From positions 1,550,001 to 1,614,000 of the forward strand of contig NZ_AP018722.1 of NCBI RefSeq assembly GCF_004001325.1: a DNA stretch of 64,000 bases, written 5' to 3'. Position 1 is the first letter of the stretch. Every line of letters starts with the position of its first letter. Below are positions 10,434 to 16,063 of this stretch, one piece after another. The stretch comes from Thiomicrorhabdus aquaedulcis. GTDB lineage: Bacteria; Pseudomonadota; Gammaproteobacteria; Thiomicrospirales; Thiomicrospiraceae. The notes below the pieces were generated by a model. That model did no database searches, was not told the DNA's origin, and was given only the letters and a program-made list of their open reading frames with translations. Position numbers and translations under genes: made by a program.

Positions 10434-11474
10434 TTAATAAAACTCGTACGGTTGCAGCTCTTGCGTGCCGCTTGCCCAAGACTTTAGCAAGCTACGTGCA
10501 TACCTGGCTTGCACAGGCCGCGCATTATTGCCCATTAACGCCCGCAATGCTTGTATTTGTTGCGTCGAAGCCTCAACGGGCTGTTTAAAAACCTGCCATC
10601 TTACGCCTTCTGTGCAAGGCGGGGTAGTCAACGACCCACTGTACTGATAAAACTGCATATCTGCCGGTAAAAAATACCCCGGATTCAAGTTAATGTCACC
10701 TAATGATTTCATTTTTGTGCCTTTTTTAGGCACATTAGCCAATACCGCACTTAACCATTCATTTTCAGCGCCTTCCTGAAACAGCACACTTAAAATTAGC
10801 GCCTGTCCATCTCCGTCTTTATGAACAATTTGCATCTCCATAGGATAGCTAAAGCCTTCTAAGGTGTGCTCGCTTGGGGTGTGAAAACCAACGTGGCTTA
10901 GGGCATAACGACGGCCTTCACTTAAAATAAAATGACCCATTGGATACTTTATTTGCACACTTTGGTCGACCCATCCCAATTGCACCGACACATCACGATA
11001 AGCAAATTGAACCCCGTTCATACCCACGGTACCCTGCGCCAAAGACTCTCTAATATCAATGGGGGACTGATTTTTGCCCGTTTTACACACGCTAAATTTA
11101 CTGGACAATCCACCCCAATACGCAGGACCTGCTTTGCCGCTGTAACCCCAAGGCAATGCAGGTTTTGCAACAGGTTTGGCAACCGCTTTTTGTTCTGGGC
11201 TTGCCGGCGGTTTAGCCGCTGTATTGGCGTTTTCCTGATTGGATTTTTTATCGTCGGTTTTTACAACTTCGGGCTTGGCGGCCGGCTCAACCGGGGGCAA
11301 CTGTTTTTCAAGCTCTGCACCTAGGTCAATTAAAGGTTCGTCGGCCACGACGGCTGGTTTAGCGTTATTGGCATTAGTGACGTTATTGGTGTTATTAGAC
11401 GGTTTTTCTTCTGACCAGGCCTGGTTAACGCTAAAAAAAACCAACGCCAACGACATTAAAAATTTAACTTTCAT
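10434..11474 (-). CDS. Alpha-carbonic anhydrase homologue, predicted acatalytic
   Basis: A 346-residue exported protein: signal peptide (residues 1-21, ending N-Q-A-W-S), a 90-residue Ala/Pro/Lys/Asn-rich linker, then an alpha-CA domain from about residue 108. Family features present are WGYSG, N-Q-S-P-I-D-I, TPSEHTLEG, and SLTTPPCTEGV with the active-site Thr. However, the zinc triad is broken. The usual H-F-H reads G-F-H (S-H-V-G-F-H-T), and the third ligand in E-x-H-x-V-H reads E-M-Q-I-V-H. Only one of three histidine ligands remains, so CO2 hydration is unlikely. It may act as a structural or binding protein like the vertebrate CA-related proteins. A good AAGGA site precedes the start. 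Confidence 0.88.
   Translation of the reverse strand: MKVKFLMSLALVFFSVNQAWSEEKPSNNTNNVTNANNAKPAVVADEPLIDLGAELEKQLPPVEPAAKPEVVKTDDKKSNQENANTAAKPPASPEQKAVAKPVAKPALPWGYSGKAGPAYWGGLSSKFSVCKTGKNQSPIDIRESLAQGTVGMNGVQFAYRDVSVQLGWVDQSVQIKYPMGHFILSEGRRYALSHVGFHTPSEHTLEGFSYPMEMQIVHKDGDGQALILSVLFQEGAENEWLSAVLANVPKKGTKMKSLGDINLNPGYFLPADMQFYQYSGSLTTPPCTEGVRWQVFKQPVEASTQQIQALRALMGNNARPVQARYARSLLKSWASGTQELQPYEFY
11414..11425. repeat. Palindrome ACCAGGCCTGGT, copy 5 (in alpha-CA signal peptide)
   Basis: Encodes N-Q-A-W-S at the end of the alpha-CA homologue's signal peptide on the minus strand. Confidence 0.95.
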
Positions 11475-11549: not shown

Positions 11550-12479
11550 TTACCCAGCGCGTGCGTCTAACAAATCTTGAAACACCGCCAATTCCGATTT
11601 TTGAATGGCAAACACACCCTCACCGCCGTGGTCGAACTCAAACCAATAAAACGGCAGTTCGGGATACGCTTCTTCTAAATAATATTGCGACACACCCACC
11701 TCAACAATCAATACGCCGTCTTCTTTTAAATGCGCAGCGGCTTGGGCTAAAATTTTACGCACCAAATCCAGTCCGTCTTCGCCTGCTTCTAAGCCCAAAC
11801 GCGGCTCTTGCAAAAACTCTGCAGGCAATGCGTCCATTTCAATGGCGTCGACATAGGGCGGATTAGACACAATTAAATCGTACTGTTTACCGTCTAACGC
11901 ACTAAATAGATCCGATTCAATGGCGTAGACAAAATCGTTTAACTCATACAAATCAATATTTTGCTGTGCCACTGCCAGCGCATCCGCTGAAATATCCACT
12001 AAATCAATTTCGGCATTTGGAAACGCGTCTAACGAGGCAATGCCAATGCAACCACTGCCGGTGCATAAGTCCAGCATATCAGTAACTTCATCAGGATTTA
12101 CCCATGGCTCATAACGCTGAGCAATTAATTCGGCAATGGGTGAGCGCGGCACTAAAGTGGATTCATTCACCAAAAACCGTACGCCTGCAAACCATGCCTC
12201 GCCCGTTAAATAGGCGGCGGGTTTGCGGTTTTCAATGCGACGTTTAAACAAGTCGGTAACCGCTTGCTTTTCGGGTTGGGTTAAGCGTGCTTGCCAATAT
12301 TTAGCCGGCACTTTAACCGGTAATTTTAAGGCAAAAAACACCAGCACTTTTGACTCATCAAAGGCATTATCCGTACCATGTCCAAAGAACAACTGGGCGG
12401 TTGAAAATAATGTGCCACCCCAGCGTACAAAATCGGCCACGGTTTCTAGACCCTCGTATTGATAATTAATGTTCGTCAT
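11550..12479 (-). CDS. prmB: Ribosomal protein L3 N5-glutamine methyltransferase PrmB
   Basis: A 309-residue SAM-dependent methylase of the HemK family that modifies a glutamine of ribosomal protein L3. Residues 120-150 carry the substrate-side motif (VPRSPIAELI), then the SAM motif DLCTGSGCIGIAS near 138, and the catalytic NPPY (IVSNPPYVD) near 206. VPRSPIAE is the PrmB-type version, as opposed to the PrmC form. GGAG precedes the ATG. It is downstream of mog on the same strand, with a nine-base G tract (12529-12537) in the gap. Confidence 0.92.
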   Translation of the reverse strand: MTNINYQYEGLETVADFVRWGGTLFSTAQLFFGHGTDNAFDESKVLVFFALKLPVKVPAKYWQARLTQPEKQAVTDLFKRRIENRKPAAYLTGEAWFAGVRFLVNESTLVPRSPIAELIAQRYEPWVNPDEVTDMLDLCTGSGCIGIASLDAFPNAEIDLVDISADALAVAQQNIDLYELNDFVYAIESDLFSALDGKQYDLIVSNPPYVDAIEMDALPAEFLQEPRLGLEAGEDGLDLVRKILAQAAAHLKEDGVLIVEVGVSQYYLEEAYPELPFYWFEFDHGGEGVFAIQKSELAVFQDLLDARAG

Positions 12480-12553: not shown

Positions 12554-13108
12554 TTAGGGTGCGATTTTTAAGGCGTGTTTAGGTCTAAACGCCTTTACAA
12601 ACTCGTCATTGGTTTCTAAATACGCCCCATCAATTAAATCAATGCAATACGGCACGGCCGGAAACACCGCTGCCAAACACTCGCCTATGGCCGACGGCTT
12701 GCCCGGTAAGTTTATAATAAGACTTGCCCCACGCGTGCCGGCAATTTGCCGTGACAAAATCGCGGTAGGAACGTATTTTAACGATTGCGCACGCATTTGC
12801 TCGGCAAAGCCATCTAAAATTTTATCGCACACAGCGGCGGTAGCCTCGGGCGTTACATCGCGTTTAGCCGGGCCTGTGCCACCGGTGGTTAAAATTAAAC
12901 TGCAACCGTGCACGTCGGCTAACTCGATTAAGGTCGCTTCAATTAAGGACTGCTCATCCGCAATCACTCGACTGTGCGCTTGCCAAGACCCTTTTAAGGC
13001 TTGCGACACCCAATCGAGCATGGCCGGACCACCCAAATCTTGATATTCACCGCGACTGGCGCGGTCTGAAATGGTGACAAAACCGATGTTAATTTGGTTG
13101 TTTTGCAT
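12554..13108 (-). CDS. mog: Molybdopterin adenylyltransferase Mog
   Basis: A 184-residue enzyme that adenylylates molybdopterin before molybdate insertion. The MoaB/Mog fold is shown by FVTISDRASRGEYQDLGGP at the N-terminus, LTTGGTGPAKRDVTPE near residue 88, and NLPGKPSAI near 147. Mog rather than MoaB is favoured by the length and the D-L-G-G-P loop. No other molybdenum cofactor genes are in the window. Confidence 0.9.
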   Translation of the reverse strand: MQNNQINIGFVTISDRASRGEYQDLGGPAMLDWVSQALKGSWQAHSRVIADEQSLIEATLIELADVHGCSLILTTGGTGPAKRDVTPEATAAVCDKILDGFAEQMRAQSLKYVPTAILSRQIAGTRGASLIINLPGKPSAIGECLAAVFPAVPYCIDLIDGAYLETNDEFVKAFRPKHALKIAP

Positions 13109-13316
13109 GACTAACCCTTGAAATCAAATTTTTAAACCCACATATAATAACGCATTGTAAAAAGAAGGTTTACGGACTTTATGCCCCGTTTGCGCCAATA
13201 CTCGTGGTTTACCAACGCATATTCGCTACATTAACCCATATTTGCCCTTAATGGCCTGTAATTACCCTATAATTTGCGCCCTTAAAATACGCCATTCACA
13301 CCCAAAAGATGCCAAC

Positions 13317-16063
13317 ATGACCGACTCAAACCCTTTGCTTGACCCCAATACTCTCATCATGCACACCGATGCAGACGACCAATCGCCGACGGATTTACGG
13401 CTAGATAACGTGGACGAAGAGGACGAGTTAGACGATTTTGACCATCTGGACGACAACGACATTCAATTTGACATAGACGACCAAGTTCAAAACGAAGCTG
13501 ATGGCGATATGGACAACGACGATTTCACCAGTGCGTCTTTAGAAGACCGTATGGCAGCTCAAAACGACTTAAACAGTCCAGCTACGCACTCCAAAAAACC
13601 AGTTTTTGGGCAATTGGCCAAACCTGACATTATCCTACCCAATGAAATTTATTTACTGCCGGTTAAAGAACGGCCGTTTTTTCCGGGTCAACAACTGCCC
13701 GTACTGCTTAATAAAGTCAATTGGAACGACACGTTTAACGCCGTTAAAGCGGCCAAATGCAAATACATCGGCTTGGTGTATGTTGACCAAGAGCATCACG
13801 AAAAAGCCCTGCCCGAAGACTTTTCGGCCATTGGCACCTTGGTGCGCATCCACGACCCTAAAGTTAAAAAGACTTTATTCAACTGATTGCCGAAGGCATT
13901 AAACGCTTTCAAATTGACCATTGGATTTCTGAAAAATCGCCGTATCGCGCCCAGGTAAGCTACCCGGCCGACATCAAAAACGGCACCGACACCGAATTTA
14001 AAGCCTACGGCTTGGCGATTATGAACGCCTTTAGAGAGTTGTTGCCGCTTAATCCGCTGTACAGCGAAGAACTTAAATACTTTTTAAACCGCTACAGCGC
14101 CAGCGAGCCGGCTCAATTGGCCGACTTTGCTGCAGGACTTACCACCGCAGACAATAACGAACTGCAAGATGTGTTAGAAACCATGGACTTGGTGGAGCGC
14201 ATGGAAAAAGTCCTGGCGCTGTTTAAGCAAGAAATTGAATTTACCAAACTGCAATTTAACATTCGTGAGCGCGTTGAAGAGAGCATAAACGATCATCAAC
14301 GTGAGTTTTTCTTGCGTCAACAACTCACCGAAATTCAACGCGAACTGGGCATGGTTAAAGACGATCAAACCTTGGACGGCGATCGCTTTCGCGAACGCAT
14401 TGCCAAACTGGCTTTAAGCGACGAAGCGCTTAAAAAAGCCGAAGAAGAGCTTGAAAAAATCAACCTCCTCGACCCCCAATCGCCCGAATACAACGTAACG
14501 CGCAATTGGCTTGATTGGCTTACTCAACTGCCTTGGGGCGTGCACAGTGCCGACAAACTCGATTTAAAACGCGCTAAAAAAATCCTTGATAAGGGTCACG
14601 ATGGCCTAGAAGACGTTAAAGACCGCATTTTAGAGTTTTTGGCGGTGGGGGTTTTAAAAGGCGAAATTGCCGGCTCGATTATTTGTTTGGTAGGCCCTCC
14701 AGGGGTAGGAAAAACCTCGATTGGCCGCTCAATTGCCAATGCATTAGGCCGTAAGTTTTACCGCTTTTCGGTGGGCGGCATGCGCGATGAGGCTGAAATT
14801 AAAGGCCATCGTCGTACCTACATAGGGGCGATGCCCGGCAAGTTTATTCAGGCACTTAAAGATTGCGAAACCGCTAATCCAGTGATTATGCTCGACGAAG
14901 TGGACAAAATTGGTGCATCGTTTCACGGCGACCCGGCCTCGGCGTTGTTAGAGGTGTTAGACCCCGAACAAAACAGCGGTTTTATGGATCACTTTTTAGA
15001 CGTGCGTTTTGATCTTTCTAAAGCGGTATTTGTCTGCACCGCCAATACGTTGGACACCATTCCCGCGCCTTTGTTAGACCGGATGGAAGTGATTCGGTTG
15101 TCGGGGTACATTACCGAAGAAAAAATGAAAATTGCTCAACACCACCTTTGGCCGGCACTGCTTAATGAAAGCGGTCTGACCAAAGAACAAGTGCAAATAA
15201 CGCCGGCGGCCGTTCGCCAGGTCATTGAAGGCTATGCGCGCGAATCGGGTGTGCGTAATCTTAAAAAACAGTTGGCCAAACTGGTGCGCAAGTTGGCGTT
15301 TAAATTTGTCACCACCGACTTACAAACCATGCGCATTCACGTCAATGAACTGGAAGCGATGCTGGGACAACCCCGTTTTACGCCCGAAAAAATTAACCAG
15401 CAAATTGGCACCATTACCGGGCTGGCGTGGACATCCATGGGGGGCGCGACCCTTACCATTGAAGCCAGTCGAGTACACACGTTAAATCGCGGGTTTAAAT
15501 TATCAGGGCAGTTGGGCGAAGTAATGCAAGAATCGGCGGGCATTGCGTACAGTTTTATCTCATCCAATCTTGACAAATACAAAGCCGACCCCGAGTTTTT
15601 TGACAAAGCCTTTGTGCACTTGCACGTGCCCGACGGCGCCACACCCAAAGACGGCCCTAGTGCAGGGGTAACCATGGCCACGGCTTTATTGTCGTTAGCG
15701 CGTAACGAAGCGATTAAAACCCCGCTGGCCATGACCGGTGAGTTAAGTTTGACCGGCCTGGTATTGCCCGTGGGCGGCATTCGTGAAAAAGTCATTGCCG
15801 CCAAACGCATCGGCCTTAAAGAACTTATTTTACCAGATGAAAACCGCAAGGATTTCTTAGAGTTACCCGACTATTTAAAAGAAGGAATGACCATTCACTT
15901 TGCCAAACACTTTGACGATGTAGCGCGATTAACCTTTAACATTCGCGCTAAATCGGTGGCGTTAAAAGCGCATACAGCGCGCAAAACGCTAACACAGGTC
16001 ATTGCGCCAGCAGGTTCCGGTTCCATAGCCGCCGCCGAAGCGATAAATACAGTACACATTTAA
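13317..16063 (+). CDS. lon: ATP-dependent protease Lon (frameshifted in this sequence)
   Basis: An AAA+ serine protease. The frame opened at ATG 13317 stops at 13886; the next frame carries the rest to 16063. Adding one A to the A5 run at 13866-13870 rejoins them (V-K-K-D-F-I-Q-L-I) into a 915-residue Lon. Landmarks: substrate-binding N-domain, Walker A GPPGVGKT, Walker B VIMLDEVDKIG, catalytic Ser in DGPSAGVT and Lys in VIAAKRIGL. The protein starts with about 90 extra residues very rich in Asp and Glu (D-E-E-D-E-L-D-D-F), absent from typical Lon. A TATAAT (13268-13273) lies 43 nt upstream of the start. The frameshift is probably a sequence error. Confidence 0.9.

Follow-up and report, generated by a model that had tools for sequence, protein, structure and literature searches.

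A putative bacterial counterpart of the carbonic anhydrase-related proteins at a conserved locus of Thiomicrorhabdus aquaedulcis and its relatives

Carbonic anhydrase (CA)-related proteins were known, as of 2017, from vertebrates, insects, nematodes and viruses (PMC5437132). Those of cnidarians often read R-H-Q at the three positions that are His in the zinc site of the alpha-CA enzymes, secreted forms have arisen repeatedly (PMC4981384), and CA10 binds neurexin (PMC8024894). What role a CA can have apart from catalysis is a question that has long been open for the animal CA-related proteins. Bacterial alpha-CA genes are counted in gene surveys as part of the inorganic-carbon toolkit; at the locus described here, approximately one third of them are probably non-enzymes. 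A search of the open-access literature, with most subscription papers lying outside it, returned no report of bacterial CA-related proteins.

The protein and its remodelled zinc site

The focal gene is the coding sequence at 10434..11474 on the minus strand of the window, that is, the whole stretch of 64,000 nt that was analysed (Thiomicrorhabdus aquaedulcis, NZ_AP018722.1, positions 1,550,001-1,614,000, GCF_004001325.1). G codes denote hereafter the genomes of the comparison set (G000 being the focal genome) and L codes denote loci. The annotation as an exported alpha-CA-like protein is based on the list of open reading frames, on the match to PF00194 (residues 116-323, E 1.2e-34, 120.5 bits against a cut-off of 27) and on the syntenic orthologues. 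From the ATG at 11474 down to 10434 the frame is uninterrupted (346 codons, 346 aa) and the purine-rich stretch TTAAGGAACACAC precedes the start, in agreement with the open gene and ribosome site described in an earlier note on this DNA. A scan for promoters and terminators gave nothing beyond chance level.

All the features that follow lie on the minus strand. The protein opens with a probable signal peptide (residues 1-21, 11412..11474), MKVKFLMSLALVFFSVNQAWS, cut after A-W-S; on this by-eye reading the export signal proposed earlier is plausible, and a similar hydrophobic segment opens the N-terminus of every orthologue. Then come the motif PLIDLGAE (residues 47-54, 11313..11336; kept in 53/53 orthologues), a linker rich in Ala, Pro and Lys (residues 57-108, 11151..11306; mostly of low model confidence), the alpha-CA domain (residues 109-334, 10473..11150; delimited by PF00194 and by the AlphaFold model against 4xz5) and the aromatic C-terminus YEFY (10437..10448), an aromatic tail being present in 53/53 orthologues. 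The Ala/Pro/Lys linker noted earlier thus exists as a low-complexity segment, but the region is not low-complexity throughout, since it contains the conserved motif. In its extended form, PLIDLGAEL (residues 47-55), this post-signal motif is found in the 36 orthologues with an intact zinc site and in the 17 that lack ligands, with L51 and E54 invariant in all 53. Among seven shorter alpha-CA paralogues, one fits a loose version of the N-terminal pattern and none has the aromatic tail. With the patterns used, the N-terminal motif and a YEFY or YEYY before a stop each occur once in the focal genome, and the idea that these end motifs are a genome-wide sorting tag was discarded for lack of other copies.

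By sequence and modelled fold, the protein is a member of the alpha-CA homology family (PF00194). The core of its AlphaFold model has a pLDDT above 90. Among proteins of solved structure, its best match is the Thiomicrospira crunogena alpha-CA (4xz5, E 5.5e-77), on which the model superimposes with a Z of 32.1 and an rmsd of 2.0 over 228 residues; the model of a catalytic orthologue (pLDDT 64) was too low in confidence for a comparison of the N-terminal motif.

The zinc triad His94/His96/His119 reads Gly/His/Gln (G-H-Q). As read from the DNA, the codons are GGT for Gly196 in place of His94 (10887..10889), CAC for His198, equivalent to His96 and the sole retained ligand (10881..10883), and CAA for Gln215 in place of His119 (10830..10832), and hence the earlier statement that two of three ligands are missing holds. 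The pocket is, however, more altered than it described, since three further residues are replaced: in the site table, V169-D170-Q171 stand where N62-G63-H64 would be (10962..10970), so that Asn62 has become Val169 and the proton shuttle His64 is gone (Gln171), and the second-shell Gln92 has become His194. The motifs NQSPIDI, SEH and SLTTPPC, listed in the same note as retained, are all found, and both residues of the gatekeeper pair Glu106-Thr199 are present. The protein therefore has neither the three zinc His and the His64 of an alpha-CA enzyme nor the His-His-Gln of an eta-CA (its first ligand being Gly), and it agrees with the CA-related class, in which at least one zinc His is replaced in a conserved, intact gene. 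As far as the sequence tells, the site appears unable to hold zinc in the usual manner and, with the zinc site lost, the focal protein has likely lost CO2 hydration activity, which should be absent or negligible.

The focal genome (2.54 Mb in two contigs) has this gene as its only PF00194 gene; searches for alpha-CA, beta-CA, CsoSCA and the DabA pump found no second alpha-CA and none of the other three. The only other CA candidate found is one match to the iota-like PF08332 (C1:2246225-2246578, locus L253), in an open frame of 245 residues whose N-terminus is unlike those of the iota-like proteins of relatives. The latter have cytoplasmic-looking N-termini with no signal peptide and so are not obvious periplasmic replacements. 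Across genomes, beta-CA, CsoSCA and DabA showed no consistent association with ligand loss. An iota-CA (PF08332) is present in 13/16 ligand-less against 9/36 intact cases family-wide, and the trend has the same direction in one to four of six independent pairs and never the opposite one, these pairs being too few for a statistical test. Compensation by the other CAs searched for was set aside, with no beta-CA, CsoSCA or DabA match in the focal genome and with the iota proteins of the relatives looking cytoplasmic.

Ligand loss among orthologues at a fixed locus

A match was found in 58 of the 63 genomes of the family (shorter paralogues counted), with G035 and G058 being near-complete genomes with none. 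In about 50 of these genomes the gene occupies a fixed locus, lon / mogA-prmB-CA, and counted by loci the upstream neighbours are prmB (52), mogA (50) and lon (49) regardless of the state of the zinc site, with contig ends accounting for most gaps in synteny. Since the neighbours are the same whether the site is intact or not, these CA genes are true orthologues. In the window, the gene directly upstream (11550..12479, minus strand) is one that we take, from its reading frame, to be prmB-like, and the next one (12554..13108, minus strand) is presumably mogA/moaB-like. Beyond them, lon (13242-16063, plus strand) is split across two frames, with the change near 13860-13890, where the first part ends ...KVKKTLFN and the other frame continues ...KDFIQLIAEGIKRF; either the A-rich run there was misassembled or this housekeeping gene is truly frameshifted. 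No partner gene was evident at the locus: its upstream side is an unchanging set of housekeeping genes and its downstream side is variable. A genome scan with the single protein as query returned one distant locus only. At L084, genome G074 has a tandem pair of alpha-CAs at this same locus, both His-His-His; a second copy of this kind could free one copy to lose catalysis.

The 53 orthologues considered are those with the long architecture, the focal one included. The triad is His-His-His in 36, and the other 17 lack one to three ligands: G-H-Q in the focal protein only, A-H-Q in G011 and G031, S-H-Q in G014, E-H-Q in G007, G071, G065, G062 and G036, T-H-H in G081, T-H-Q in G079, R-R-Q in G082, G078 and G077, V-R-Q in G080, and Q-K-Q in G076 and G083. 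Intact triads in all other orthologues, the outcome that the earlier note had named against itself, are thus the opposite of what was found, and orthologues with the identical Gly and Gln pair, which it proposed to search for, were not found among the 53, where Gln119 recurs and residue 94 varies (G, A, E, S, T, R, V or Q). With 16 further orthologues at the same locus having lost ligands too, the focal state is not a matter of chance or of one mutation. His96 is retained in most lineages, and the close sisters G081 (T-H-H) and G079 (T-H-Q) suggest that His94 is lost first and His119 afterwards. All eight gene-bearing genomes of a Thiomicrospira-like genus are ligand-less. For Thiomicrospira pelophila, the alpha-CA transcript is listed with no significant change when inorganic carbon is limiting (PMC12628692); judging from those eight genomes, the alpha-CA of this species may be ligand-less as well.

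Wherever His119 is replaced, in seven lineages of the family and about six more outside it, the replacement is Gln, with CAA or CAG at this codon in 16/17 ligand-less forms and His in the remaining one. In a sample of the class, 85 alpha-CAs are His-His-His and the rest read A-H-Q, D-H-Q, R-L-Q, R-I-Q and Q-R-Q (the last from a gene of G126 that appears interrupted); in a sample of the phylum, 58 are His-His-His and the rest read K-H-Q, Q-H-Q, R-H-Q, E-R-Q, E-H-H and N-H-H, plus two partial ones, the loci being no random draw of all bacteria, so that no general rate is to be read from them. Ligand-less alpha-CAs with Gln119 occur in other families of Pseudomonadota (L162, L168, L176, L177, L220, L223, L225 and L228), and that of L228 reads R-H-Q, identical to the cnidarian CA-related signature. 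Two of the eight amino-acid-changing single-base changes of a His codon give Gln, and seven lineages would all arrive at it by chance with a probability of ~6e-5, by our own arithmetic, in which all base changes are taken as equally likely and the lineages as independent. At position 94, by contrast, the residues are diverse and most of the codons seen are at least two base changes away. As Glu117 is kept in 17/17 ligand-less forms, Gln119 is probably favoured for a hydrogen bond to this core residue once zinc is gone.

Loss of ligands leaves much of the protein untouched: E106, H107, E117, H122, W209 and both Cys are present in 17/17 ligand-less forms and Thr199 in 16/17. Gln92, on the other hand, is found in 36/36 intact and 0/17 ligand-less forms, and His64 is kept in all 36 intact orthologues. 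Repeated loss of the zinc site with the rest kept suggests that the protein is retained for something besides bicarbonate production. Since the beta-sheet core, the Cys pair, the hydrogen-bond residues E106, T199 and E117 and both flanking motifs are kept, the focal protein most likely has no catalytic role and acts in the periplasm by binding or as a scaffold, which would make it a bacterial counterpart, by convergence, of the CA-related proteins. An alternative, unlikely while still carrying some weight, is an altered metal centre, in which E-H-Q, T-H-H and perhaps G-H-Q with an outside ligand would bind zinc or another metal, giving a weak hydratase or a new hydrolytic activity. It would fit the persistence of E106, T199 and E117 in nearly all ligand-less forms and of His96 in the focal protein and most lineages; in some lineages, a metal could still be bound through Glu94 or Gln119. 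Besides, the H-H-Q enzyme of Plasmodium has activity and the H94N mutant of human CAII retains some (both cited in PMC5437132). However, the focal protein keeps one ligand His and has also lost His64, Asn62 and Gln92, the R-R-Q, V-R-Q and Q-K-Q forms of the Thiomicrospira-like genus have no ligand His whatsoever, and the F-H-Q protein of Toxoplasma is inactive (PMC5437132).

Repeated loss, later constraint and a possible older role

How many times were the ligands lost? The AU test rejects a single clade, and with it one origin, for all 17 forms without the full ligand set (p 3.3e-5). The CA gene tree requires at least three losses, and the tree of lon, mogA and prmB gives seven changes, at least six of them on well-supported branches, corresponding to the focal lineage, G007, G014+G031, G011, G062+G036, G071+G065 and the Thiomicrospira-like genus. 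G007 (E-H-Q), sister to G027 (H-H-H) with support 100/100, shows a recent ligand loss directly. Three is a floor and seven the best count, since the trees differ and long branches draw the ligand-less forms together, although seven is uncertain because the CA tree needs only three and the CA data reject the full linked-gene topology. An origin of the ligand-less form only once or twice, with homologous recombination at the locus then spreading it and convergence being overstated, is an improbable reading that would account for this significant discordance between the CA and linked-gene trees and for the weak grouping of 12/17 ligand-less forms (support 60) on the former. Nevertheless, the long branches themselves predict such a cluster, residue 94 differs between lineages, the 17 do not form one clade, and monophyly of the focal genus with the focal gene included is not rejected by the CA data (p 0.21).

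Relative to the linked genes, the CA domain evolves ~2.3x faster on ligand-less branches, with most of the excess on the stems where the loss occurred; the rate ratio is 4.7 on the focal branch, a long one on the CA tree (1.58 changes per column), and 1-2.5 on most later ligand-less branches. Ligand loss was, i.e., a burst of change followed by renewed constraint. Between ligand-less sister pairs dN/dS is 0.022, 0.025, 0.041, 0.067, 0.078 and 0.151, and between intact pairs, where measurable, 0.005-0.044 (Nei-Gojobori counts, NG86, several of the ligand-less pairs showing high or saturated synonymous divergence); the post-loss constraint of the focal lineage is inferred from these other pairs, as the set holds no close relative of it. 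The faster ligand-less branches and the near-complete G035 and G058 genomes with no match might be taken for relaxed constraint, with periplasmic CA activity no longer needed and the gene slowly eroding toward loss. This is quite improbable given that post-loss dN/dS stays at 0.02-0.15 (the ground on which the earlier claim of a gene that is not decaying stands), that none of the 17 ligand-less frames has a stop, and that the end motifs are invariant, synteny is stable and a replaced residue 119 is always Gln. Sequencing or assembly error at both codons has next to no chance of being the cause, for although the lon frameshift about 2.4 kb away indicates that small assembly errors are possible, His94 to GGT takes two base changes, the pocket has other substitutions besides, and the same kind of loss is seen in 16 more genomes.

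The reading that, as a whole, we consider the best and would favour with some reserve is that of an exported, folded alpha-CA pseudoenzyme serving in the periplasm as a module for binding or scaffolding, in a role older than the losses. In it, the PLIDLGAEL motif and the aromatic tail might dock the protein, either on a partner or at a site in the envelope, and contact could be made through the domain surface or the remodelled pocket. Enzymes and non-enzymes alike share the fold, the export, both end motifs and the position in the genome, and the simplest account would be a second, binding function that predates the losses. Because the catalytic orthologues carry identical end motifs, a non-catalytic role was probably already present in them; this would explain how catalysis could be dropped in one lineage after another with the protein being kept. 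A more specific version, with somewhat less than an even chance of being right, places an old, catalysis-independent job in the end motifs and has enzymes converted repeatedly into pure binders by way of a varied residue 94 and always Gln119; if true, bacterial CA-related proteins would be a widespread and overlooked class. Sister species that share the locus but differ in whether the zinc site is present are a natural experiment on the non-catalytic roles of CAs, and the recurrent Gln119 provides a simple sequence test for more bacterial CA-related proteins.

Comparison with known systems

The closest described system is the alpha-CA of Thiomicrospira (Hydrogenovibrio) crunogena (4xz5), which has a homologous domain (49% identity) and, in the genes of its group, the same locus, signal, motif, linker and YEFY tail, but differs in being a catalytic enzyme with an intact His-His-His site. 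The CA-like domain of PTPRZ (3jxf), a non-enzymatic binding domain, has the same fold (Z 25.7 to the focal model), although as a domain of an animal receptor. Outside the animals, a eukaryotic CA-related protein has also reached the X-His-Gln pattern: TgCA_RP of Toxoplasma gondii has lost two ligands (F-H-Q) and the proton shuttle and is exported, while, unlike the focal protein, it belongs to an eta-like CA lineage of a eukaryote and is GPI-anchored; its inactivity was shown by assay (PMC5437132). The eta-CA of Plasmodium (PfCA) shares Gln at the third ligand position, but it has His at the other two and is an active enzyme (PMC5437132). The animal CA-related proteins VIII, X and XI are alike in the alpha-CA fold, the replaced zinc ligands, the conservation and the presumed binding role, whereas the focal protein is bacterial and periplasmic, has a separate origin and belongs to a set in which residue 94 varies. 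No common descent with them was found, the focal gene being syntenic with bacterial alpha-CAs and its best matches being bacterial. The likeness to the CA-related proteins claimed in the earlier note is therefore real as regards the lost zinc ligands, but, since the gene falls within the bacterial alpha-CAs and its locus is syntenic, it is a likeness by convergence.
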